DNA of 64,000 bases. It comes from Clytia hemisphaerica. Lineage: Eukaryota > Cnidaria > Hydrozoa > Leptothecata > Clytiidae. The stretch is taken from NCBI GenBank assembly GCA_902728285.1, contig CACVBU010000819.1:124001-188000 (forward strand), given 5' to 3'. Below the pieces are notes generated by a model that made no database searches, was not told the origin of the DNA, and saw only the letters and a program-made list of their open reading frames with translations. This document shows, piece by piece, positions 9,183 through 58,862 of this stretch (position 1 is its first letter; each line of letters starts with the position of its first letter). A program made the position numbers and the translations under genes.

Positions 9183-9203
9183 AGTAAAATTCGCATCAGC
9201 AGT

Positions 9204-9760
9204 GTCCTCTCGCACCCTCTCGTGAACATCTTGATGGCGCACCACCAAATTCACGCCCTCCCTGCCCTCTCGTGAACATCTCGATGGCGCACCACCAAAT
9301 TTACTTCCTCCAACCTTCTCGTGAACATCTCAATGGCGCAGCACCGAAATTCACACTCTCCTGCCCTCTCGTGAACATCTCGATGACGCACCACCAAATT
9401 CACACACCTCCGCCCTCTCGTGAACATCTCGATGGCGCACCACCAAATTCACACCCTCCCGCCCTTTCGTGAACATCTCGATGGCACAGCACCAAATTTA
9501 CACTCTCTTGCCCTCTTGTGAACATCTCGATGGCGCACGCACCAAATCAAAACTAAATTTTCACCAATTTTCGCAGTATCTACTCACACCTCTCGTGAAC
9601 ATCTCGAGGAAGCTCCATCGTGAACCTAATTCAAACAGCCCGTCTTATATCACTCATATCGTAGTGTTTTCTCGCACCCTAAACATTTCGATGGCGCACG
9701 TATCAAATTCACACCTTCTAAATACCACCCTCCCGCCCTATCGTGAACATCTTGAAGGTG
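9204..9760 (+). repeat. 49-50 bp minisatellite inside a 3' UTR
   Basis: The unit centres on cgtgaacatctcgatggcgc followed by accaccaaattcaca and a C/T-rich spacer. The cgtgaacatc core recurs at about 9221, 9271, 9320, 9370, 9419, 9468 and 9517, with diverged units near 9594, 9670 and 9743. The array begins within 25 bases of the stop codon and ends before the AATAAA at 9801. Open frames through it are by-products of the repeat. Confidence 0.9.
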
Positions 9761-15420: not shown

Positions 15421-15925
15421 CTGAACAAGTCTTAAAAATAGATTTCAATTCTACTATGGTGTTATTTGACATGATGTGATTTTGTGCACGTATTAACAAA
15501 AATTTGTATTGCTGACCTTCGAAATTATATTACGAGACATAACAACGTACCTTAACAACGTTTACACCTTGTCTGTGAACTGTGAGTGTAATGCAACTGA
15601 AATTTCCGAATCAACTTCCGCATGTATATTGACAGTGAACTTTCCTGAAGAAATATATAATTTTGACAACTCAAACCTTAACGGGTGACAAAACAAGTTC
15701 AAACGATCGAAAAATTTGAAAGGAAAACCTTCTAAGAATCTGCAGCACTAAGTTTTGTGAAAATATTTTTAAGGGTCACTTCTTTAGCAATTTTGTCTCT
15801 CTTAGAGTTACCTTCTAAGCAAAAATCAGTCTCACTAAGGATCGGTTTTCGGAGGTTCTGTCAGCATATACTCCTCATCTGCCAACCCTAGCACCCCTTC
15901 CCCAACCCGGGCCAGATATCTAGTC

Positions 15926-16215
15926 CATTGAGTTTCAAGCCCGAAGGGCTAGAGGTCAATCTCTAACCTTTCTCAGGCAAGAAAAATTGAAGCCTTAAAA
16001 TATGCGCCGTATTTTTGATGACGGATTGAATCTAGCAATTCCTTTGTTTTTGAGTGATATATTTTTCGAAATTAAGCGGTAAATTTTAGTTTCAATCTGT
16101 CATTTGTGTAAAAACCAGGCGGGTCGCTCAAGGCCGCGCAACTTTGGTAGGATTTGTTGGCTTCAAATCCTACCAAAGAGATTGACCTCTAGCCCTTCGG
16201 GCTTGAAACTCAATG
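15926..16215. mobile_element. hAT-like MITE with 8-bp target duplication
   Basis: Inverted ends of about 40 bp begin cattgagtttcaagcccgaa and are near perfect. The element is bounded by the 8-bp direct repeat ATCTAGTC at 15918-15925 and 16216-16223. An 8-bp duplication is diagnostic of hAT-type transposition. 290 bp, no ORF. Confidence 0.85.
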
Positions 16216-16597
16216 ATCTAGTCCTTCAGGTCATACTATCAACCTATGGTATGGAATATATTATAGGAAAAATTGATACGTGACAGCGAGAACTCTCCTA
16301 AACAATTTTATCATGAAAAGATACTCAACCGCAGAGAGTTTTCTTAACGGTGCATTTCTATGGCACGAAAATTTGATAAACATGAGAAAGCGCACGGTTA
16401 TTGGTTTTGCGTGAATACGTGCACGAATTAAATTCTTTTCTCACTCATTTTTTCTATAGTTTCTACATATTTTGGTGCTTCTTTTTAAGTTTATTGTCGA
16501 AAATATCCTCAGTGTGATTTACGTAACTGTAGGTTTGGGACCAGGGAATAGAAAACTTTTAACCTTCTGGTTGAGTCTACAGATAGTAAAATTTTAA

Positions 16598-17431
16598 ATG
16601 GAAGGCTTCAGCTCGTCACTAAGGCGTATTAAAACAGTAAACGAAACACAACCATCAAAAGATTCATCTTCAACTGGCCCTACCAATGATCATGTTTGGG
16701 AGAGGGCTAATACCCCAACCGATTCTACAATATCTGGATTTGACCTGAACTCAATCGATGAGGAATTAAGAACAATAAACATAGTGGAAGCGTTAAACGA
16801 TACAGGTATATGTATATTGGATAATTTTTTCAGCAAAGAACAGTCAATGAAGATTGCTAAAGTAACCAAATTTTTATACCAAAATATACCAGGACTTTTT
16901 ACTGAACCGTTAAATATGACCCCACCTTCGAAGAAATTTCGTTTTGATAAAACATGTTGGGTAAAAGGGACGGAGAATTTCGTTGAATGTTATTCTGAAG
17001 TAAATCGTGCTTTCGCAAAACTGATCAAAGACATTTTGGACGATTACAACAGTACTGGTATAGATGCCAAACCTGATGAAAACAGATCAAGAAGTTCTAC
17101 AAAGAAACGCGTGAAGATTACGCATCGTTCTAAAATACAAATCTCCTGTTTCCCCAAAAATACTGGTGGCTATTTACCTCATATTGATAATCCCAGGGAT
17201 AATGGACGCATCTTAACTCTGGTGTATTACCCAAATGAGAAATATGATCTGGAAGAATGTGGTGGTCTGTCTAGATTCTATGTTAATGATAAAACGAAAA
17301 TGATGAACGTAGAACCAATACAAAATCGCTTGGTGATCTATTGGTCTGACAAGAGGGTGATCACAGAAACTTTACCAACGTTTAGAGATGTTTTTTCCTT
17401 GAGCTGTTGGTTTTTTGGAGCAATGAAGTGA
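16598..17431 (+). CDS. EGLN/PHD-like 2-oxoglutarate dioxygenase-fold protein, probably catalytically impaired
   Basis: A single 277-aa exon. An in-frame TAA directly precedes the ATG. Residues about 60-277 align over their length with the PHD (EGLN) prolyl hydroxylases, which hydroxylate HIF-alpha using Fe(II), 2-oxoglutarate and O2. Clear anchors are GICILDNFF (70-78), CWVKG (120-124), GGYLPHIDNP (190-199), VYYPN (209-213), CGGLSRFY (221-228), IYWSDKR (247-253) and CWFF (270-273). The first His and Asp of the iron triad are present (H195, D197). In the PHD family the distal ligand lies in 'RxPHEVxP'; here the segment is RVITETLP, so Thr256 replaces the His. The arginine that anchors 2-oxoglutarate nine residues later is Val265. 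There is no MYND finger. Absence of introns suggests a retrocopy, though the frame is intact. It could be a regulatory pseudoenzyme or an aberrant sensor. Confidence 0.85.
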   Translation: MEGFSSSLRRIKTVNETQPSKDSSSTGPTNDHVWERANTPTDSTISGFDLNSIDEELRTINIVEALNDTGICILDNFFSKEQSMKIAKVTKFLYQNIPGLFTEPLNMTPPSKKFRFDKTCWVKGTENFVECYSEVNRAFAKLIKDILDDYNSTGIDAKPDENRSRSSTKKRVKITHRSKIQISCFPKNTGGYLPHIDNPRDNGRILTLVYYPNEKYDLEECGGLSRFYVNDKTKMMNVEPIQNRLVIYWSDKRVITETLPTFRDVFSLSCWFFGAMK

Positions 17432-17475: not shown

Positions 17476-17481
17476 AATAAA
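17476..17481 (+). terminator. Polyadenylation signal AATAAA
   Basis: 45 bases after the stop of the EGLN-like gene. Confidence 0.5.
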
Positions 17482-24134: not shown

Positions 24135-27100
24135 TCATTTCTTTACACCATGTGAGATCCTCATGTGCGATTTCAAGTACGCTCGTTTCAAAAAATTCAA
24201 TCTACAAATCGAACATTTATCGCCGCTCACTTTACTTCTACCATGTTTAAAGGTAACATGACGTAATAATTGTTTCTTTGTTGACAAAACAACCTGACAT
24301 AACTTGCATATATACTTTCCGGTGGTCACACCATTCGTCTTAGCACCGTGCGTAGATTTCATATGAAAATGATACGATTCTCGTGACTTAAAGTATAAAG
24401 TACAATCCCGACATTTAAAGAAAGTCGGCGATTTTTCATTATCGGATTGATGAACCGGGTCCACTTTAGTCGGTGTTTTGAGAAGCGATTCTTTGATAAT
24501 TTCTTTCGAAATTTTCGAGAGCTCTTCGTGAGAAACAGGTAGATTAGAATCAACTAGCTCTGATTTCGACTCTCTTTCTTCTTGGATATCTCTCATTTCG
24601 TCACTACGTACAAATTCCTCATGAACATTACGATGGCAAGAATACATTTTCAAAGGTTTATCAACATCCCCAAAACCAGCCCTCAAATCTAACGTTTTCA
24701 AATTAGTAATTTTATTGTTCAACGATCGGACGTCAGTCGTAAATGATTCCGTAACTTCTTTTTCATCGTCGGTATCGTAAACTTGGACGTCAACTTCCGT
24801 AAATTCGTCTATAGGTTCTTCTTTAATACATAAAGTTGAAATATATAAGGCATTCTTCATGATGGAAACTCGGTTACGTCTCTCCATTCTCGATTCACGT
24901 TCCAAGTCTTGTTCGTCAATACCTTTAGTCCTTTGATCGTCATTCCTTCCTGGCTGTTGATCTAATAATTTTTTTATTTCATTCGATATTTCAATTATTG
25001 ATGACGAATCCAGAGTGACCTTAGCAGATGATAAGTCAATCGAAGCAGATTCTTCATCTTGACGCTGTATTTTAAGGCCTGGTTCACATGTTGTCTCTTC
25101 ATCTACCATTTCTAAAGCTCTCTTTCCATGACGATTTTCAGTGTCAGATTCCTTGACTGCAATGTTGGTATGCTTTGACGGCGACGGTTTTTGTGTGATG
25201 ACAAGCTCCAATTGCTCGTCCAACCCAACTAAGATTTCTGGTGGTTTTTGACATGCCTCTTTCAGCTTATTTACAGGGATAGCAAGTTCAGCTTTCGTTA
25301 TCAGAGTCTTAGGAAACACCAGCTCTTTTTCTCCAGTATTTTCTGCATTTGGATGAACGCAAATCTTATTGGTGTGATCTTGCTCACTTTTTGAGAGCCA
25401 TTTTTGGTTGTTCAGTTTCATTTCGATAGTAAGCAGTATCGAGGATAATGTCTCTTCAACATCTTTCGCTAAAGTGTGGAGAACAAAAGATAAAACAGTA
25501 AAAGAGCATACCAACCTAGAATAACATCCAAAACTAGGCTGAGAACAAAATATTAGTTGGCCGTTAGCCGACCCTAGCTTTTGGAGGAGAGTCGGTCGAG
25601 TAATTTTGAGGATTTATAAAAACCCTGTTTACAATTTATTTACGGAAAAGCTAGAAGGGAATTCATGATTCTTAAACTTAAGATGGAATAAGACTGACAT
25701 AACAGAGGTTTAAAAAAATCCTGCTTCAAAATAAATGGCTATAACATTTTCTGGGTCGGTCTGATGACGGCAAACCAATATTTTAATGGTGTTCAGCCTT
25801 GTGTTTAAAAGAATCGTAAGATGTATAATAAGCAGAATAAATTTCGTCTTCAGAAAGTATATAAAATAACCAGTAGAAATAAGTTGCTAACAGGAAAATT
25901 GAAATTCAAGATTTACCAATAATGTTATCTTTATGGTCAAACGAAACAGCGTTAGAAATTGATTCTTCTGAGCTTTGAGCTTCTTCGAGCGTCATGTATA
26001 AGTCTTGAGTCTGGTTGAGTTTCTCTGTTGCCAGGGGCGTTAAATTGTCATTCCGACCTTAGGAACAAAATGGGAAAAATATGAGTACGATAATGCTGTA
26101 GATGATTGCCAAAGGAGGATCACTTTAGAACTAAGGTGTGTGAGATCAGAGTTTCGCGTTGAACCTAGATAGAAGGAAAAGGGAGTGAATTTAAGTGATA
26201 AAGACAAATAGTAAAACAAATTGGAATTACAAATGAAGATTCCCTTACTGAGTCGCAAGTTGGATTGCGTCGGTTTTGCGTCACTCTCTTTCTGTTGTGT
26301 GGCCGCTTCATTTTGCTGATTTGTCAAAGCTGAAAAAAAGTCAAAAAGCTAAGATTCCAATGATTTTTAAAACTAGTAAAGTTTCAAGAAATAATGAAAT
26401 ACAGTATACCCTTTGTACTTCGAAAACAAGGGCATAAAATATATATATTTCAAAAGAAATTTCGGTTCCGCATGCAGTAAGTACGTAAAAAAGTAAGTTT
26501 GCGACCACAGTCGAGGGCGACCCGAAGTCTCTTTTTTGGTATAGCTGTCTACCCGAAGGTAGGGGTATCAGCATGCAGTAGCTCCTTACCTGGATGAAGT
26601 TTAGATGATAGGTCAATTTCCCATTCTTCTTTGATGTATGGTCGTTTGATGGCAACACAACCTTTTGAAACATCTTCAACTAATTTGTACAAAACATCAC
26701 GAACTATTTCTTCATCGGTGATTGGACACACTTCATTGAGAATCTCATTAATAGTGTCTTTAACATCAACTTGTATACGTCGTTCTTTCTCATCCTCGAT
26801 CTGTCGAAGAGCCTCTTTTGTCAAGCAATCATCAGCCAAGGATAACAGGCTAGAAAAGATATCGTCTGCTGTAAGGTAAGCTTGTTGGTCAATTTTCGAT
26901 TGGTAGTCAAAACTTGAATCGAATTCGACATCTTTCGACAGCATTGTGAAACCAACGTCTGATTCTGAGTGTTGTTGTGGTGAATCTTTCCCAACGTTGT
27001 ATTGGTCGAGGTCGCCAAGTAACGTCGAATCTTCGTAAATTGGTTTCATCTGTTGCGCGTATAATTCATCTTCGTACACGTAATATTTACTACGTTTACG

Positions 27101-30100
27101 GCGCGACGTTTGACTATTACTTGCTTGCTGCGGAGAATTCGTTCTTGCTTCTTTTGCAGCGTTTGAAGCGTTACGTGCTGATCGTTTACGCGAACCATAT
27201 CCGCCTTTACGCCGTTTATTGTTACGTTTACGTTTCCCTTTCGTTTGATCTTCTTGTGTTTCGACGTCGTCATTCCTTTCTACGTCAACGACATTAACGA
27301 CATCGACGTCTATCTCTCCATTGCGTTGCGGTTGTCGTTGCGGTTGTTGTTGCTGTTCATTCTCCGATGACGGTGCCATGACGGCCGTTGTTTCTGAATG
27401 GAAGTCTGCCATCTTAATGTGAAGTTTAACTTTTAACGGCTCGACTCTTTCAACTTGAACTGTCGGATTGTCAGTAGAATTTCTTCGGGAGCGACTATTT
27501 GTTGATTTTATCGTCTTGTCGTCTTTTTGATCGTCTTTACGTTGGTTTCTCATCAGGACGCGGACGGCTCGCTCCGCTTTTCCGATTTTCTTCTTAAGTG
27601 CTCTTACTGTCGGATCTTCATCGTCGGAAATCGAAGGTTTCCTTGACGACGGCGTTGTTTTGGCAGATGGTGGTTCAGTAGTGACGTTGTCATGCGCTGA
27701 TTCTTTTTTCTTTTTCAATGACTGCACCCGATCGAAAATCCTCATCAAGGCTTCTTCAGAGAGTGTCGTGTTCTCAAAAGAAACTCCTTCAATCTCGTTA
27801 GAGGTTTTTGCGCCATCCTTGTTCTTCTCACCAGTGGCAGATTCAGTGGGTGGTGAGGGCGTTGGCGTCGCTTGTTTCTTGTTACCAGAAGCTTTGAAGA
27901 CAGATTCTACTTGTTGGTGAAGGTTGATACGTTTCTCTTTTGGTTGGACAGTAACTTCAGATGGCGTGACAATTTCTTGTGTGGTTGGCACGTCAGTTTT
28001 CGATTGGTTTTTCAGTTGTTCAAGTTTGAGTTCACGTTTCATTTTCTTGCTTTTCATAACGACTTCTTTAGCTTTGATCATCCCTGATGATTTGGTTGAT
28101 TTCACCTTCGGAACGACAGATGTCTGTATTATCGATACCGACGGTGACGGATTGTCGGAGTTATCTTCCTTGACGAAATCTTGCATTTGTTTACGCCTCG
28201 ATTGCCGTGCTTTCAGTGCGTCCATGAAAGCCTTCTTACGCTGTGTTTGCTTGGATTGTCGTTTCCCAATAACAATACCAGATTCATTTTGCGCGTCCGT
28301 CTCTTGGGAGCTCGCCTCATGAGGGGATTGAGAACTGATTTCAGTTTCTATTTTCGATTCAGTCGTTTGATCTTCTCGTGTATCATCAGCCGATTTTTGT
28401 TCCTCGTCAGTTTGTTGAGGGCGAGCTTTCATTTTTGCTTCCATTTGTTCTTTCAATTTTAACGCTCGCTCTTTCTCCTTCCTACGTTTCTTTTTAAGCC
28501 GTTTCTGTTCGATACGTCGTTCACGATCCTTAATTTCTTCCTTGGAAAGCATTTTCAGTCTTTTATTATCAGTAGAGTCTTTTTCACTTGTGCTGTCTTT
28601 CCTTTGTCTCTCTTTCTTGGTTTCAGAAGTGTGTTTCGTTTGTTTTTCGCGTAATTCTCGTATCTTTGCCAGTTCTTGTTTAATGTCAGTATCAGATAAC
28701 TTTTTAGTCGGTTTATTTGATTTCTTGGAGGAATCATTACCTTTGGTTATATTTTTTACCGAGGGTTTGGTGGTTTTCTTTGACGTATGTACACGAACGT
28801 TATCTGGATTTTCCGTTGGTTTGATTTTGGTAAAAGTCACACCAACAGCTGGGAGGGGTTTCTTGACTTGGTGTGGCTTATGTGCTTTAATCGAATTGCG
28901 CGGATTCAACTCTTTATTGATGGTCTCTACATTTTTGTGTTTTGAGCTAACGTGAATTTCGAGGTCGACAAAGCCAGCAAAAGAGCGCCCACATTCGCCA
29001 CAAAGGAAACCTTTGCGTTCAGCGTTATCTACTGGTGATTTCGGTGCAGATAGATTTTTCTTTGAATCTCGTAAAGGTGGTCCAAGTAAGGCCAAAATAC
29101 TTTTTGCGGTTTTGGAGGGGCTTTCGGGAGGAGGCGGCTTTTTCGTAGGTGAAATGGAGGGAGAAGGTTTTGTCGTAGGTGGGAATTCGATTTTCTTGTT
29201 GTCGAAATTCTTTATAGATTCGTGTGTAACTAATATTGATTTTGGTTTAATAGTTGGTGTATAAGAAAGTGGTGCTGGCAATTGCTTGGTCGATTGAGGA
29301 GTCGAAGGTTTCTTTGGTAGTATGTTTGACTGGTTAGGGGTTTGTTGCAGAGACAAAGCAGTTGGCGTTAAAGGCGATTTCTTTATAGGAACTGTAGTAG
29401 TCGTTGGCTTGGGAGCTTGTGATGCTGATGGCTTTGGTGGTTGATTTAATGGGAGATTCGTCACTTTCGGAGATGGTAGCGGGGGAGGCTTCTTAGAAAT
29501 TGTTGGTGAGGATTTTGATGCAGACCAGTGAGCGATACCATCGGTCGTAGGCGGGGGTTTGGGTGCGAGTTTCTGATTGGTTGATTGAGGTGTTGTTGGT
29601 GAAGTCATGACTTCTTGCTCTGGCTCGTCTCCAATACTTTGCAAGAATGCTAGGTACTCGTTCTCCATAGAGTCACTACCTTTCGGTTTTCGTTTGTGAT
29701 AATCTGATAACGATAGTTTGCGACCATCGACTTTCAGTTCTTTGATGGAAGGTGAGACCAAAGGTGATGGTGGTAACCTCTTGGTGGGTTCTGATGGTTT
29801 AGGTAGGGGTGGTGGTGGAGGCGGAGGCGGTGAATCCGAAGCCGATGGAGACAGAATATGTGGTTTGTAAATATCTGCTAATTTGGAAGACGAGAATGTA
29901 GTCTTTGGTGAAGTTAGTCTAGGATCTGAGCCAGTAGGTGACAGAACTGCTGGCGGTGATAATATTGACGAGGATGGAGATTCTATTTTCTTGTGCGCAT
30001 CGTTCGAATGTTTCAATTTTAACGGAGTTGGTAGATCTATTAGTTTATCTTTCTTAGAAGATTCACTATCAGTTCGTTTACGTTTATTCTCAATTTGTTT

Positions 30101-33100
30101 ACGTTTTGTTTCTTTTTCTTCTCTACGGTTTATAAGTTTTTGTAGCCTCTCGATTTCCTCGGGTACTAATTTCTTATTGTATTTTTTCAGTTTTGCTTTT
30201 AGTTCTGTAGAGTTCATAGTGGACCTCTCAAGTTTTCGGAGAAACCCATGATACTTAGTCCTAACAGGTTTGTCATTAGCACTTGGAAGTTGCTCATTGG
30301 TTGGTTGCTCTAAATTATTGTCTGTAGATTTCTCAATATCGTTATTTGGTGGCTTCTCTTGGGGTTTTGACGATGCTGCTTCATGATTGATCGTTGTCTC
30401 TTCTTCCTTTCCTTCTTCTTTGTCGATAACCGTTTTAATTTCTGCCTCTTGTTTAACACTTGTAGTTGATGGGAAATCGAAAGACTCTGGTATGACTATA
30501 GGGCTTGATACTAGAGGTGTGCTTGGTGTACTACTGATGCTCTTGTTCAATAAACTACCAGACGGACTGATTAAACTAGTGGCAACAGGTTGTTGTAGCA
30601 ATTGATGTTGATTTAAAAAGCTTAAAGTGTTTATATTTTGAGCCAGCATTGTATTCGATTGCTGATATTGGAGAAGTTGAAGTTGTAAAAGTTTTTGTGC
30701 ATTCAATTCTATTTCAGCTTTCTTTTGGTCGTATGTGTTAAATGGAGTTGGTAAAGATGGAGTCGTAAGTTCAGTCTTTGGTGTGGTACCATCATGGACA
30801 TGGCTGCCAGCGCTACTGGTTGATATTGATCGCTTCCTCGTGGTTTCGTCACAGGAATCCCTTATTGAATCTTTGGATGTACTGTTCTGTCTTGAAAGGT
30901 TCGGAGCTGATTGTCCCTTGATGGTTAATGCTTGATCCGTTAATTTGTCGAGGAAATTAATCATGCTTTTCTTTTCATCCTCGTCTCGTTCAGAAGAAAC
31001 GCTTTTCAGTCCACGATCGATTGTCTTTTTGACTGTTAAGTCACGCAAATCTTCGATGAAATACGGTTGAGCAGGTAGACTTTCTGAGAGTTCAGTCTTA
31101 CTTGGAAGGAGTTTACCAATGTCGAATTTCTGCTCGTTTTCTGAATAAAGAAAAATAATCAAAAAATTAAGAGAAACACTCCACAGTCTAATTTTTAACA
31201 AACTCAGATTAAAAGTCTATTATTCTAAATTCCCCCTCCGACATTCTTCTGGCAAACCTTCAGAGACTGCCTGAGTGTAACAACCAAAGAAATTACTGAC
31301 AGTCTCTTCTCAATTTTGTCCCTTGTAAGACTAAAAATTCAAAGGTATTCTTTTACGTTATAGAAGGAGACGCTCCTATGTGTTTACAAAGCAGAATCTT
31401 CTCAAAGAGCCGAAACTAAGAAAAGTTGTTTTTTTCTTTTCTTTAAAAATGCTGTTTAAATAAATGGTAGGTGATACATTAAATGATGTCCTACCCTATT
31501 AGCCCGAGGGGGGTAGAATCTATCACGTTGGAGTTCTTTTGTGTATATCTCAGAGAAAAAAATTTTAAACGACTTGAAACTTTCTGACTTTTAACAAAAT
31601 CTTATTAAGAGTACTTGTGCAAAATTTTAGGGTCATAGGTTGTCCAGATCAGGTTTTATGACTTTATTGTGAAACATGACATAAAAGCCAGCTAAAAACG
31701 CTTAAAACTCAAAATTTAAAAGTGCTGATAACCTCTGAACTATTTATCTATTTATTTAATCATTTTCAAATTTTGACACGTGATAAACATAGTCGAACGT
31801 GCGCAACGCACTGGGCTCAACTTCAGTGGCTTCAAATCATTCCTAGGCCCAATTGTATACCCCCAGATATTCACCCAATGAACAAGTGTGCCAAATTTCA
31901 ACCAAACCCGATCATTTTGGAGGCCTGTAGACTGTTCCAAAGCTTTAGCCTCGTTTTGGCAAAAAACTCGTTCCCAGGCCCCAAAAATCAAAATTTTTGA
32001 AAAATGCGAAGAGCACCCCCAGATATTCACCCAAGCAACAAGTGTGCAAAATTTCAGCCAAATCAAACAATTTTTGAAGTCTCCAGGCTGCCCCAAAGTT
32101 TTAGCCTCGTTTTGGCGAAAACCTCGTGCCTAAGCCCCAAAAATCAAAATTTTCAAAAAAAGAAGAAAACTCCCCCAGATATTCAACCAAGGAACAAGTG
32201 TGCAAAATTTCAGCCAAATCCAAGCATTTTTGAAGTCTCCAGGCTGCCCTAAAGTTTTAGCCTCGTTTTGGCGAAAAACTCGTGCCTAGGCCCCAAAAAT
32301 CAAAATTTTCAAAAAAAGAAAAAAACACCCCCAGATATTCACCAAAGGAACAAGTGTGCAAAATTTAAGCCAAATCCAAGCATTTTTGAAGTCTCCAGGC
32401 TGCCCTAAAGTTTTAGCCTCGTTTTGGCGAAAAACTCGTCCCCAGACCCCAAAAATCAAAATTTTCAAAAAAAGAAAAAAACACCCCCAGATATTCACCC
32501 AAGGAACAAGTGTGCAAAATTTCAGCCAAATCCAAGCATTTTTGAAGTCTACAGGCTGCCCTAAAGTTTTTGTGACAGACAGACACACACACACACAGAC
32601 AGACAGACATTGTCAGATTGTAGCTCAACTGAAGTTGAGAATTGACAATATAAATTTGAAAAACTAAAAAAAAAAATTTGAAAATGATGACGTCATCATT
32701 TATCATTTCATCTTCAGCATAGATTTTAAGAAAAAATCTTTATGGAAATTGCAAAACCGGCAATTATGTTAAAGAACAGCCTTTTATCTTTCAGAATCTT
32801 CAAACAGAATCTAAATATCTTTATTGGTTCGACATTTTTGTAAACCATATATTTGGGCTTTTTTCCAACAGGTGGAAATTTTGTGATGACGTCATCGGTT
32901 TTTGAATGACGTCAATTTTTTTCTTCTTCTTGGAAATTTGTGTTATGATGGAGAACATCTGTACCAAATTTCATGGCCATAGCTCTTCTAGATCGAAAAT
33001 AATCGAGGGTGGTAGATTCTACCCCCCTGGGGATACCAAAGTTAAAAAAGCTTTGGGCTAATAGGGTTAAGATTGAAGAAAGAAGCTCTTACTGTTTTCC

Positions 33101-50900: not shown

Positions 50901-52725
50901 TGTGAAAGATCGGCTTTTACATATCTGCGCAAGAATTTAATTACATATTTGGGCAGCTCGAAATTACATATCTGCACAAAATAATTACATATCTGCACAA
51001 AAATTACATATCTGCGCATAACAACTTCAATTTTTTGTTGATAAACAACATGAAGTCCAAATGAAGTTTAAGCTTAAATATTTTGACTATTGTCTAGGGA
51101 TTCGAATATTTTTTCCTGTATTTTATACCGTAGGTACTAATTTATGGGAAATGCTCATGGTTTTTCTTATTTTTTACAGGTTTTGATTATTATTTTAGGG
51201 TCATCTTTTTATTTGACATGTGGTGTCCCATATACAGCACTTCCATTGGCAACATGCATGACTCTAGATCATGACATCCCAATGGTTATTCGTCGACGAG
51301 AAGCAAAAGATTATGGCACCAGACAGATGATTGAAGGTGTTTACAAATCTGGCGATGTTTGTTTGATTGTGGAAGACGTAGTCACTAGTGGTGGAAGTGT
51401 ATTAGAGACTGCCAAAGAGCTGAATAATGTCGATCTTGTAGTCAAAGGTATTTTGTTTTATTCTAATTTATGTTTACTCGCAAGTGCCTAAGACACATTA
51501 GAGGGGGCAAATGGTTTTGTTGGTGTGTGAGTACTAGCCCTTCTTTTTTTCGGTGTTTTGTGTTTGAGGAAAAAATTACAGTATTTTGGTGTCAAAAGTG
51601 CTGAAAGAATGTGATGTGATGAAAAAAAGTTTATCTTTCATATTCTTTCTAATGCAAAAAGATTCATTTTGTTACGACTTAGTTGAATTCAACGTGTTAT
51701 ACCTTTTTGTGTTGCACCTGGATGATGTTTTATTTGTTTATTTTTTAGATGCTGTTGTTTTACTCGACCGATGCCAGGGTGGTAAAGAACGGCTTCAAGA
51801 AAATGGTATCAAACTTCATAGTGTGATGAAATTAGATCAAGTTCTTGAAACATTGAGAAAACATAACAAAATAGATCAAACACTTTACAACACAGTAAAG
51901 CAATTTTTAACAACAAACCAATTTCAACCAGCTAAAAAGGACACTCCTGAAACCTTATCCTATTCTGCTAGAAAGGATCTCGTTAAAAACACAGTTGCCA
52001 AGCGTATCTTAGACATCATGGAGACAAAAAAGACAAATCTTGCTTTTTCAGCTGATATTACAAACTGCTCAGAACTTTTGAAAATGGTTGATTTGGTTGG
52101 TCCTCATTGTTGTATGGTGAAAACACACGTGGATATTTTAGATGATTTCAATGAAGAGTTTATTGCCAAACTAAAAGAACTTTCTCAGAAACATAACTTT
52201 ATCATTTTCGAAGATCGTAAGTTTGCTGATATAGGTAATACAGTGAAAAATCAATTCTCAAAAGGTGTTTATAAGATCAATGATTGGGCTGACTTAACTA
52301 ATGCACATGCTGTCCCTGGTCAAGGAGTCATTGATGGTCTTGAAAGCTGTACTGAAAATATGTCAAGGGCGTGCCTCCTTATAGCTCAGATGAGTTCTGC
52401 TGGTGCTTTGACCGATTCCAAATACATTAAATCAACTGTTGAAATGGCTAAAAAAAAGAATGATTATGTGATTGGCTTTATATCTACTTCTCAAGTTTGT
52501 ACTGATGATCCTCGGTACTTGCATTTCACACCTGGAGTCAGCTTGCAGTCTAGTGGTGATAGCCTCGGTCAGCAATACACGAGTCCTGAAGAAGTGATCA
52601 GAAACCGTAATTGTGACGTCATCATTGTTGGGCGTGGTATTTACAAAGCTGAAGATCCGGTTGAGGCAGCCAAAGCTTACCAGACAGCTGGATACCAAGC
52701 TTATTTGGATAAATTAGATAGATAG
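41912..52725 (+). CDS. UMPS: Bifunctional UMP synthase (orotate phosphoribosyltransferase / OMP decarboxylase), 466 aa
   Basis: Exons are 41912..42086, 51199..51447 and 51749..52725 (1401 nt, phase-1 introns). It catalyses the last two steps of de novo UMP synthesis in the cytosol: orotate plus PRPP to OMP, then decarboxylation to UMP. The OPRT half contains [39 protein letters not shown] and the PRPP loop [11 protein letters not shown] (115-125). The decarboxylase half begins near residue 220 and has the catalytic D-x-K-x-x-D array in [13 protein letters not shown] (D297, K299, D302), [15 protein letters not shown] and IIVGRGIY. Length and domain order match animal UMPS (about 480 aa). Acceptor 51198 gives the family-length join [15 protein letters not shown]; the alternative acceptor 18 bases upstream would add residues and break frame. 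Intron 1 is 9.1 kb of nested repeats. Confidence 0.95.
42419..42803. mobile_element. MITE with CAATACACCTTTCCCGTAAT ends
   Basis: The 22-bp ends caatacacctttcccgtaat plus tc are exact inverses. Inner pairs (ccaccgtt / aacggtgg; gggaggtaaa / tttacctcc; cgtttttgcctgcg / cgcaggcaaaaacg) extend the homology over about 100 bp. Confidence 0.85.
43391..46325. mobile_element. 2.9-kb element with inverted ends and iterated GCGGACATAACT motif
   Basis: The left end is atacatg-T(8)-ataagcata. The right end is the inverse of atacacg-T(9)-ataagcata. The ends share further inverted homology (gagcatgagtctggtaatgt then caccca near 43500, against 46045-46085). The interior carries the word tgcggacataacttttt at least eight times in both orientations. 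No ORF of note. Confidence 0.65.
46515..46680. repeat. A-rich low-complexity array
   Basis: Runs of 8-14 A separated by ttatgt, ttatcc or gatgt, like a decayed tandem repeat or concatenated SINE tails. Confidence 0.8.
46824..47405 (+). repeat. tRNA-headed GC-rich repeat, family D
   Basis: The head gttggcccagtggtatagggc with ttcacgc in the anticodon-loop position (CAC, valine-like) and cccgttcgaatcggg as T-arm. The acceptor stem does not pair, so it is not a functional tRNA. A GC-rich body follows with ggtcaccggtcaccgg. The right border is estimated. Confidence 0.5.
49209..50745. repeat. 122-124 bp tandem satellite, 8 copies, interrupted once
   Basis: cccatgtttgct recurs at 49271, 49395, 50029, 50153, 50277, 50401, 50523 and 50645. 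Each unit includes 'gatgcttataagaaaaataa' and 'actgatcaccgaaagctaat'. The jump from 49395 to 50029 is 124 + 510, which exposes an inserted segment. Confidence 0.95.
49463..49970. mobile_element. About 510-bp insertion inside the satellite
   Basis: Begins catggcttggcagcagg and ends ggttccagccatg, so its termini are short inverted matches (catggctgg). It has C-rich (49491-49501) and G-rich (49945-49955) tracts and repeated 'ttaggtgacccc'. Its size equals the gap in satellite spacing. Confidence 0.75.
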
Positions 52726-57030: not shown

Positions 57031-57749
57031 GTTCCCACAAAAAAGAGCAAACGAGTATAATGAAAATTCGAACTTCCTGTAGAAAATTCTCCGGGGATTT
57101 TGATCTAAATGTAAAGTGAGCAGAAGGAACAAAAAGAAGCACGTGGGAACGGTTAACTTGCTAATTTTTTACAAGAAAGAAATAAATATGATTAAGAAAT
57201 TTATTCTTTGAAATCTAAGAGTTAAAGCTATCTGGACCGACACGCCTGTAAATTGGTTTAGCAACTTTTAACACAAGTGTTACCTTACATCGCGTAATTT
57301 GATGTAATCTTTTTGCAAAGCGTAGTATCACCTGAATACGATATTCTGTAAAGAGATTCAAAGTCTATCCATCATACATATGCAAGGTTGAAATTTAATT
57401 CAAACATCTCTTTTAGCATATTAATTTTTTCTTCGTTATTTTTTAAACTTGAATCTTGCGATTAAAAACAAGCTTAAGCGAATTTTGCAAGCCCTTTGCA
57501 CTCCAGGCAAGCTCGTCGCTCGCTAATGCTTCTCACTTGGCTATACTTCAGCGTAACCAGAGTTTAATTACTTTGAATCTCTTGGCAAGATTTCTCTAGC
57601 TTTGCTTTTGCTTCGCTTTTATTCAAATAAATCTGAATCCCCTCTTAATCGTTATTCTATAAACCTGTTTATATCTTCTGTGTTTTCTAGATAATTTGTG
57701 ACTTGATTATTCAAAGAGAGAGCGTGAAAAATACTATTGGAATAAAAAG

Positions 57750-58862
57750 ATGGTTTTTGGTAATGGTACAGCAATAAGAGACTTAAAGTGTCCAGCGACG
57801 TTGGTATATGTGGATTCTCAAGCCTTTACAATCAACTCCATCGTTGTTGCCATCTTTAATCTGGTCGTTGCCGTGCCAACCATAATGCTAAACATCTTGG
57901 TAATTGTTGCTATGTCGAGAAAAGCTTCACTGCGTAAATTAAGCAATAAGATTTTAACGAATCTAGCAATTTCAGATCTATTAAGTGGACTTATGGTGCA
58001 GCCCAGTATTAGCGCAATCCTTATTATTGCTAATTCTCAGACACCTTTAGATGTTCCTTGTCAGTTAGTGATTTTCACCAGTGTTGCTGGATACACGTTG
58101 GCTTGTGTTTCGCTACTGACGGTATCTTTTGTCTCATTTGAACGCTACGTGGCTATATTTTATCCGTTTTTCTACAACCGACGTATTTCATCGAGACTCT
58201 TATTAATTGTGTGTGCTTCCATATGGATTGTATCATTTGTGGCAATATTTAGCATGTATTTTACAAACCAGCATGCGTTATTCTTTTGGACCAATCTCGT
58301 TGTAATAACTTTCACTTATCTATGGAACATATATGTTTATATACAAATCATGCGACAGGTCAATAAGATACACCGTGATATGCAGCAAAGGCTCAAAGTT
58401 CTCGGTACCGAAAAAAATGTCAAAAATAATTCGAAAAGTATGCGGTTGGCTGCTGTTGTCATTTTAAACCTTTTGTCATGTTACTTACCTCAAATTATAT
58501 TATCAATATGGCGCAGCATACCCTCGTACCCCCTTTTCGTTGACGGTTATTTGGAATACTGGTCGATGACTATTGGACCTTTTGCATCGTGTCTTAACCC
58601 CCTTGTTTATTGTTACTACGATCCTGAGATCAAACGAGAAGTTTGCAGTATCGTGACAAGGTCAAGGCGGAAACAAGATGATTTTTCAAGGAGTTATTAT
58701 GGTGGTAGCTTTGAAAGTTCACCGTTACCTTCAAGTAGAAATTTTACTATCAAAGAACGAATGCAAGTTAAGAATTCGTCACAAAATGGTGGATTTTGTG
58801 ATGATCAGGACGATCCAGTGAGGAAATCTTCGAAAAATGATATCGAAGAGGACAACCTATAA
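57750..58862 (+). CDS. Rhodopsin-class (class A) G-protein-coupled receptor, 370 aa
   Basis: A single coding exon with an acceptor (tgttttctag) at 57690. Seven hydrophobic segments are visible. Class A landmarks are an N-glycosylation site at N5, N48 in TM1, D76 in TM2 (NLAISD), C104 at the start of TM3, E131-R132-Y133 in place of DRY, P247 in TM6 (SCYLPQ; the usual Trp is absent) and N283-P284-L-V-Y287 in TM7, then a basic helix 8 and a Ser-rich tail. The second extracellular loop is very short and has no cysteine, so the usual TM3-ECL2 disulphide cannot form; this recalls the melanocortin/adenosine/lipid receptor groups. The ligand cannot be predicted. AATAAA at 58930 follows the stop by 68 bases. 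Confidence 0.9.
   Translation: MVFGNGTAIRDLKCPATLVYVDSQAFTINSIVVAIFNLVVAVPTIMLNILVIVAMSRKASLRKLSNKILTNLAISDLLSGLMVQPSISAILIIANSQTPLDVPCQLVIFTSVAGYTLACVSLLTVSFVSFERYVAIFYPFFYNRRISSRLLLIVCASIWIVSFVAIFSMYFTNQHALFFWTNLVVITFTYLWNIYVYIQIMRQVNKIHRDMQQRLKVLGTEKNVKNNSKSMRLAAVVILNLLSCYLPQIILSIWRSIPSYPLFVDGYLEYWSMTIGPFASCLNPLVYCYYDPEIKREVCSIVTRSRRKQDDFSRSYYGGSFESSPLPSSRNFTIKERMQVKNSSQNGGFCDDQDDPVRKSSKNDIEEDNL

Follow-up and report, generated by a model that had tools for sequence, protein, structure and literature searches.

An intronless family of EGLN-derived genes without EGLN cofactor residues in the hydrozoan Clytia hemisphaerica

Animals sense oxygen with EGLN enzymes, and anaemia is treated with inhibitors of these enzymes. 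Pseudoenzymes, such as the pseudokinases, keep the fold and the reading frame of an enzyme and lose its catalytic residues. An intronless gene in the genome of the hydrozoan Clytia hemisphaerica raises the question of whether an EGLN could have taken the same course: it encodes an EGLN-like protein in which positions that bind iron and 2-oxoglutarate (2OG) in human PHD2 are occupied by other residues. We asked where this gene comes from, in what order the residues were lost, and whether the protein is likely to be an enzyme, a binder or the product of a decaying copy. The window analysed here is the whole stretch of 64,000 nucleotides around the gene (contig CACVBU010000819.1, positions 124,001 to 188,000 of the forward strand). 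It lies on the contig called C562 below, and the genome searched comprises 417 Mb in 951 contigs.

The gene, its predicted fold and its cofactor positions

The frame occupies positions 16598..17431 of the window (plus strand, stop codon included) and comprises 277 codons and a stop, with an in-frame TAA immediately 5' of the ATG. It is intact over all 277 codons, as an earlier note on this DNA, made from the sequence alone, had claimed, and no stop-free run of at least 277 codons arose in 200 mononucleotide shuffles of the window. An AATAAA at 17476..17481 (+), 45 nt 3' of the stop, is a possible polyadenylation signal, a chance match being conceivable in AT-rich DNA. Upstream of the gene, at 15920-16221, the window contains a MITE-like inverted repeat with 45-nt arms that are 96% complementary and 212 nt apart.

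The best solved relative of the encoded protein is human PHD2 (EGLN1), with a phmmer value of 7e-30. At a threshold of 0.001, Pfam yields a single match, to the 2OG-Fe(II) oxygenase domain PF13640 (2.2e-10). The N-terminal region, residues 1-55 (16598..16762, +), adds no further family at that threshold, and the same scan finds no MYND finger in the protein. On the strength of the ORF listing, the PHD2 match and PF13640, we describe the gene as a candidate EGLN-like pseudo-hydroxylase.

An AlphaFold2 model of residues 56-277 (16763..17428, +), built on an input alignment of 15 rows, three of which are single exons of the EGLN gene on contig C930, reaches a pLDDT of 87.5 and a pTM of 0.87. The 50 matches listed by Foldseek against the PDB are PHD2 and Trichoplax PHD entries; the model superposes on 6yw4 with a TM score of 0.79 and an rmsd of 1.7 Å over 212 columns, and the rmsd reaches up to 5.1 Å among the matches listed. 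The earlier note had proposed such a comparison of a predicted model with PHD2 as a check on the replaced residues. PHD2 structures indeed match best, and the His and Arg replacements themselves are read from a gapless sequence alignment. Judged by model and alignment, the window protein keeps a double-stranded beta-helix domain of the PHD2 type.

PHD2 residues 295-391 align to the window protein without a gap, at an offset of 118. The iron ligands of PHD2 are His313, Asp315 and His374, and its Arg383 contacts the C5 carboxylate of 2OG, as described in PMC11525979. The aligned residues of the window protein are His195, Asp197, Thr256 and Val265. The first two iron ligands are kept, in H195-I-D197 (17180..17188, +), and the triad of active EGLNs is incomplete, with the codon of Thr256 (17363..17365, +) at the position of the third; the Arg that anchors the C5 carboxylate is missing, and the codon of Val265 (17390..17392, +) stands at its place. 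The loss of the distal iron His and of the 2OG Arg, which the earlier note had read from the sequence, is borne out by this alignment, in which RVITETLP lies opposite 'RNPHEVQP' of PHD2. The fold landmarks that it had named, H195-x-D197, CGGLSRFY and IYWSDKR, are all present. Phe185 occupies the position of PHD2 Tyr303. The protein stops at the position that corresponds to PHD2 residue 395 and is without Arg396, Lys400 and Lys402, which are HIF contacts in the C-terminal part of PHD2 (PMC10003257).

Another arginine, Arg263, is found two residues before Val265. This position is Arg in two of the five aligned members of the gene family described below (the window and C649) and Glu, Thr or Asn in the other three. 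The secondary structure of the model puts it in a loop that precedes the last strand, and Val265 opens that strand. Given this placement and the Arg in 2/5 rows, Arg263 is not an obvious replacement for Arg383. By alignment, the window protein falls outside the active EGLN/PHD enzymes on the two features tested, the iron triad and Arg383.

The window protein resembles the EGLN/PHD hydroxylases (human EGLN1/PHD2, the Trichoplax PHD of 6ey1/6f0w and the MYND-EGLN on C930) in its predicted fold and in the H-x-D, GR, WSD and final Trp. It differs from them in lacking the distal His, the 2OG-binding Arg, Tyr303 and the MYND finger, and its gene differs in having neither sequence past PHD2 395 nor the domain introns. 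In retaining its frame and predicted fold and losing catalytic residues, the gene is like pseudoenzymes in general. RIOX1 of mammals and Drosophila is also an intronless gene of the 2OG oxygenase type, for which retroduplication is discussed by the authors, and the active-site residues are reported as conserved in RIOX (PMC6006756); unlike in RIOX, they are lost in the window gene. We found no description of an EGLN-derived pseudoenzyme, or of an inactive EGLN from Hydra or other cnidarians, in the open-access literature. The accessible text of PMC4057343 reports HIF-alpha from Hydra and Aurelia and some PHDs from Aurelia, with inactive copies unmentioned there.

Intronless relatives, their origin and the order of residue losses

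A search of the genome with the window protein recovered at least six places, including the window itself and none on C930. The EGLN domain gave at least ten matches, consisting of four C930 exons and the same six intronless places: C562 (the window), C717, C649, C793, C248 and C38. The frames of C562, C717 and C649 are intact. Of the three broken ones, C793 and C38 each contain two or more frame changes, and C248 lacks a single base in an A-run, which may be a sequencing error. An alignment of 897 bases, which covers the gene and some flanking sequence, shows 6 mismatches and 1 gap between C248 and C649, and eight collinear pieces with 92-98% identity, separated by insertions, account for about 13 of 30 kb between C649:45-75 kb and C248:512-542 kb. 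Because of this near-identity and collinearity, C248 may be the other, uncollapsed allele of C649; alternatively, it may be a segmental duplication. The C649 copy (L011) has a polypyrimidine tract and AG (CTTTTCTTTTAG) 15 nt 5' of its ATG, resembling a splice acceptor, to which a 5' exon or a spliced leader might be joined.

An intron-bearing EGLN paralogue, which the earlier note had suggested looking for, is present in the same genome. This gene, the one ordinary EGLN found, lies on C930 and encodes a MYND finger and a 2OG domain; four of its introns have GT/AG borders, and its four catalytic residues are all present. Three introns of its catalytic domain are missing from the window, C717 and C649 frames, and with respect to these three introns the label 'intronless' holds. 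One of the introns of the C930 gene interrupts the codon for the Arg that anchors 2OG, after its second base (AG|G; L022, 6109-6110 and 6503).

We left C248 out of the trees as a near copy of C649. The remaining five family rows form one group with respect to the C930 EGLN, human EGLN1 and a bacterial outgroup, with a support of 100/100, and the grouping is recovered, again at 100/100, without the outgroup and with the trait positions masked. The window groups with C717 at 97/95 and 92/95 in the two trees, and its end branch is the shortest of the five (0.35 and 0.31, compared with 0.68-1.05 in the others).

The broken C793 copy (C793:301003-304314; L012, about 975-1128) matches zf-MYND at 6.1e-9 in its readable part, and its MYND finger is uninterrupted at the site of the C930 MYND intron. 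The uninterrupted finger, the absence of the domain introns and the grouping together argue for reverse transcription of a MYND-EGLN message. The comparison thus points to the intronless family being old retrogenes, descended from a MYND-EGLN mRNA that would have been reverse-transcribed in a hydrozoan or an ancestor. The window gene is not flanked by any exact repeat of 12-24 bases, and the 240 bases 3' of its stop contain no run of 8 or more A; a missing oligo-A tail and target-site duplication are expected from erosion in an old copy.

Two other routes were considered. A recent viral origin is unsupported, as neither tblastn against phages nor the viral_contigs scan gave a match to the window protein. 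As for capture by a mobile element, 10-kb stretches containing the six copies were compared at the nucleotide level, and no common border was seen around the genes except in the C649/C248 pair. A repeat of about 70-280 bases is shared by the window, C717, C649 and C38 stretches, four of the six; it occurs at varying distances from the gene and is taken as a putative common dispersed repeat. In the window, the segment 19741-20010 is 73-94% similar, in pieces, to the stretches near the C717, C649 and C38 copies.

The residues at the cofactor positions differ in how they are distributed across the family. The Arg383 position is hydrophobic in all five rows (V, I, M, L, L) and is Arg in the C930 EGLN, in human EGLN1 and in 7/7 bacterial or phage relatives (our own reading of alignment A6). 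Tyr303 is likewise replaced throughout (F, F, F, S, F). The distal His position reads T, K, K, H and, beside a two-residue gap, L. H-x-D is intact in three rows (window, C717 and C38) and altered in C649, where D is replaced by E, and in C793, the sole row with the distal His, where the proximal His is replaced by Arg.

The hydrophobic residue at Arg383 in 5/5 rows suggests that 2OG binding was probably lost before the family copies split. A single loss of the Arg on the family stem would be the shortest account, and would have left proteins unable to use 2OG as EGLN does. Five separate losses may also have occurred, and are conceivable because the replacing residue differs between rows. The iron ligands, to judge from the varied states of the distal His and from the C793 row, which retains it next to a proximal Arg, were probably lost later and separately, in members already without the 2OG anchor; in the window gene it would have been the third ligand that went, from His to Thr. 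On these alignments and trees, an EGLN-derived gene family without EGLN cofactor residues is real and well supported.

Selection and candidate roles

We compared dN and dS between paralogues of the same genome. The window and C717 differ by a dN of 0.62, with dS saturated (differences at the three codon positions 0.49/0.37/0.65), and the window and C649 by a dN of 0.70 and a dS of 2.45 (0.53/0.39/0.62); due to the saturation of dS, the dN/dS ratio is only a bound. In a neutral simulation of 2000 copies, 2.9% were still free of stops after 0.1 substitutions per site and 0.25% after 0.2, and by 0.3 every copy had acquired a stop. With both stops and frameshifts counted, and 10% indels assumed, 0.25% of the copies were open at 0.05 and 0/2000 at 0.1. 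Codon divergence, as seen between paralogues, and frame survival are compatible with purifying selection after the loss of the Arg. If that loss preceded the splits, much of the constraint would have been on proteins that could no longer use 2OG in the manner of EGLN. The C649/C248 pair gave no selection signal, neighbouring non-coding bins often being as similar as the gene. We consider it rather probable that several copies of the family, including that of the window, have nonetheless been retained by selection as non-catalytic proteins with an EGLN fold.

With its cofactor residues lost and its shape apparently kept, the window protein would probably be a binder and not an enzyme. We explored the conservation of positions that touch the HIF degron in PHD2, namely Trp258, Arg295, Thr296, Tyr310, Arg322, Trp389 and Phe391 (PMC10003257) and Arg252 (PMC13151054). 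To these we added Asp254, where the substrate loop ends, making nine positions. Lys297, which is not invariant in both EGLNs, was left out, as were loop residues 239-241 and Lys262, which fall outside the block that was compared, and everything from residue 396 on, which the window protein lacks. Among positions invariant in both EGLNs, the contacts are kept at 8/9 in the window compared with 18/47 of the other positions (uncorrected p 0.0085), at 8/9 compared with 15/47 in C717 (uncorrected p 0.0022) and at 7/9 compared with 18/47 in C649 (p 0.063). C793 and C38, with six positions compared, keep 4/6 each and display no enrichment (p 0.667 and 0.409). In a narrower set without Arg252, Asp254 and Trp258, the window keeps 5/6 (p 0.082), C717 5/6 (p 0.032) and C649 4/6 (p 0.385), leaving C649, C793 and C38 without significance in either set and the window without it in the narrower one. 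As these are ten uncorrected tests on a hand-picked set, we treat the result as an exploratory lead, suggestive of a retained degron groove.

The HIF2-alpha degron is still bound in crystals of PHD2 that contain neither metal nor 2OG (PMC11525979), so that degron binding may do without the cofactors. As the most likely single working mode, and a tentative one that we would sooner expect to fail than to hold, the kept groove would bind a proline-containing degron, for example that of HIF-alpha, without hydroxylating it; the bound degron would be shielded from the active EGLN, or the EGLN would be competed with, regardless of oxygen. More broadly, and as speculatively, hydrozoans might possess oxygen-blind EGLN decoys, which would have lost 2OG and iron binding, kept the groove and set the stability of HIF or of another degron against the active EGLN. 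VHL-domain matches occur at 3 places in the genome. The HIF-alpha model PF11413 matched nowhere in the genome, and, the model being short, this absence is uninformative. The earlier note had read the protein as a pseudo-hydroxylase that binds substrate or competes with an active EGLN. The first half of that reading is supported, in that the residues are replaced within an intact frame, a paralogue is present and the codon pattern among paralogues fits purifying selection; the binding or competing half is the tentative one.

A different use of the fold would overlap with the reading that selection has kept non-catalytic proteins, which leaves the ligand open. The EGLN fold may have been repurposed for another ligand (a metabolite, a metal or a protein) held in a new pocket created by the loss of the Arg and His, with no link to HIF. 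We regard this as doubtful and still worth serious consideration. Sites invariant in both EGLNs carry family-specific residues that would suit such a change, Ser 301, Tyr 334, Tyr 346 and Asn 361 in 5/5 rows each and Lys 305 and Pro 312 in 4/5 each; the HIF-contact positions are better preserved than other positions in the window and C717 rows, an exploratory result that argues the other way.

It is unlikely, in our estimate, that the window holds an old retrogene whose function was lost recently, with a frame that is open by chance and a locus now as neutral as the broken C793 and C38. Three of the six family places are broken, indicating that the family also decays, and simulated neutral copies do stay open for a while: with stops and frameshifts counted and 10% indels assumed, 35.7% were open at 0.01 substitutions per site and 12.9% at 0.02, and a loss within about 0.02-0.05 substitutions per site is compatible with the simulation. 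However, none of the other four rows has an end branch as short as that of the window, and two other family members are intact. Very improbable is a surviving oxygenase or metal enzyme, in which H195 and D197 would act with water or Thr256 and 2OG would be held by Arg263 or be unneeded: H-x-D is retained in the window, C717 and C38 rows and Arg263, two residues ahead of the lost Arg, is also Arg in C649, but this Arg is found in 2/5 rows and in a loop before the strand in the model, H-x-D is altered in C649 and C793, and Tyr303 is replaced in 5/5.

Should the reading of selected, non-catalytic EGLN-fold proteins be true, the family would provide a natural, catalytically dead EGLN in which degron binding is separated from hydroxylation, and non-catalytic roles of the fold would become testable. 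In an early-branching animal lineage, the HIF pathway would then have gained a branch that works independently of oxygen, or the fold would have been put to some other use.

Other features of the genome and the window

Matches to PF13640 also occur in two further regions of the genome, C553:2001-11716 and C564:75324-87909, with three matches each in long open frames of 675-888 aa. Given their similar sizes and scores, the two regions probably represent a single tandem 2OG-oxygenase array present in two copies.

The mitochondrial contig C900 carries, with genes named from their translations, cox2-atp8-atp6-cox3-nad2-nad5-nad6-nad3-nad4L-nad1-nad4-cob and a partial cox1 that runs to the contig end. 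TGA is read as Trp, and AGA occurs at Arg sites, which we take to be conserved sites. The contig gives the genome a hydrozoan look, and the gene order is presumably that of Hydroidolina. Medusozoan mtDNA is described as linear, with nad6-nad3-nad4L-nad1-nad4 as a block and an additional cox1 that is in some cases partial (PMC4655093). The order on C900 agrees in part with that given for Hydroidolina in the same source (PMC4655093); the direction of the partial cox1 differs, and the contig may be incomplete.

Within the window, the translation of 9188-9469 (+) contains recurring 'LVNISMAHHQI'-like units that, by eye, are probably a short tandem repeat. An open frame of 1555 codons at 26552-31216 (-) is of low-complexity appearance and has no Pfam match at 0.001. 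A UMP synthase-like gene lies at 51141-52722 (+), with an OMP decarboxylase domain (PF00215, 3.7e-55) and a weak phosphoribosyltransferase match (2.7e-5) under the Pfam cut-off, and the open frame at 57702-58859 (+) encodes a rhodopsin-type GPCR domain (PF00001, 2.8e-26).
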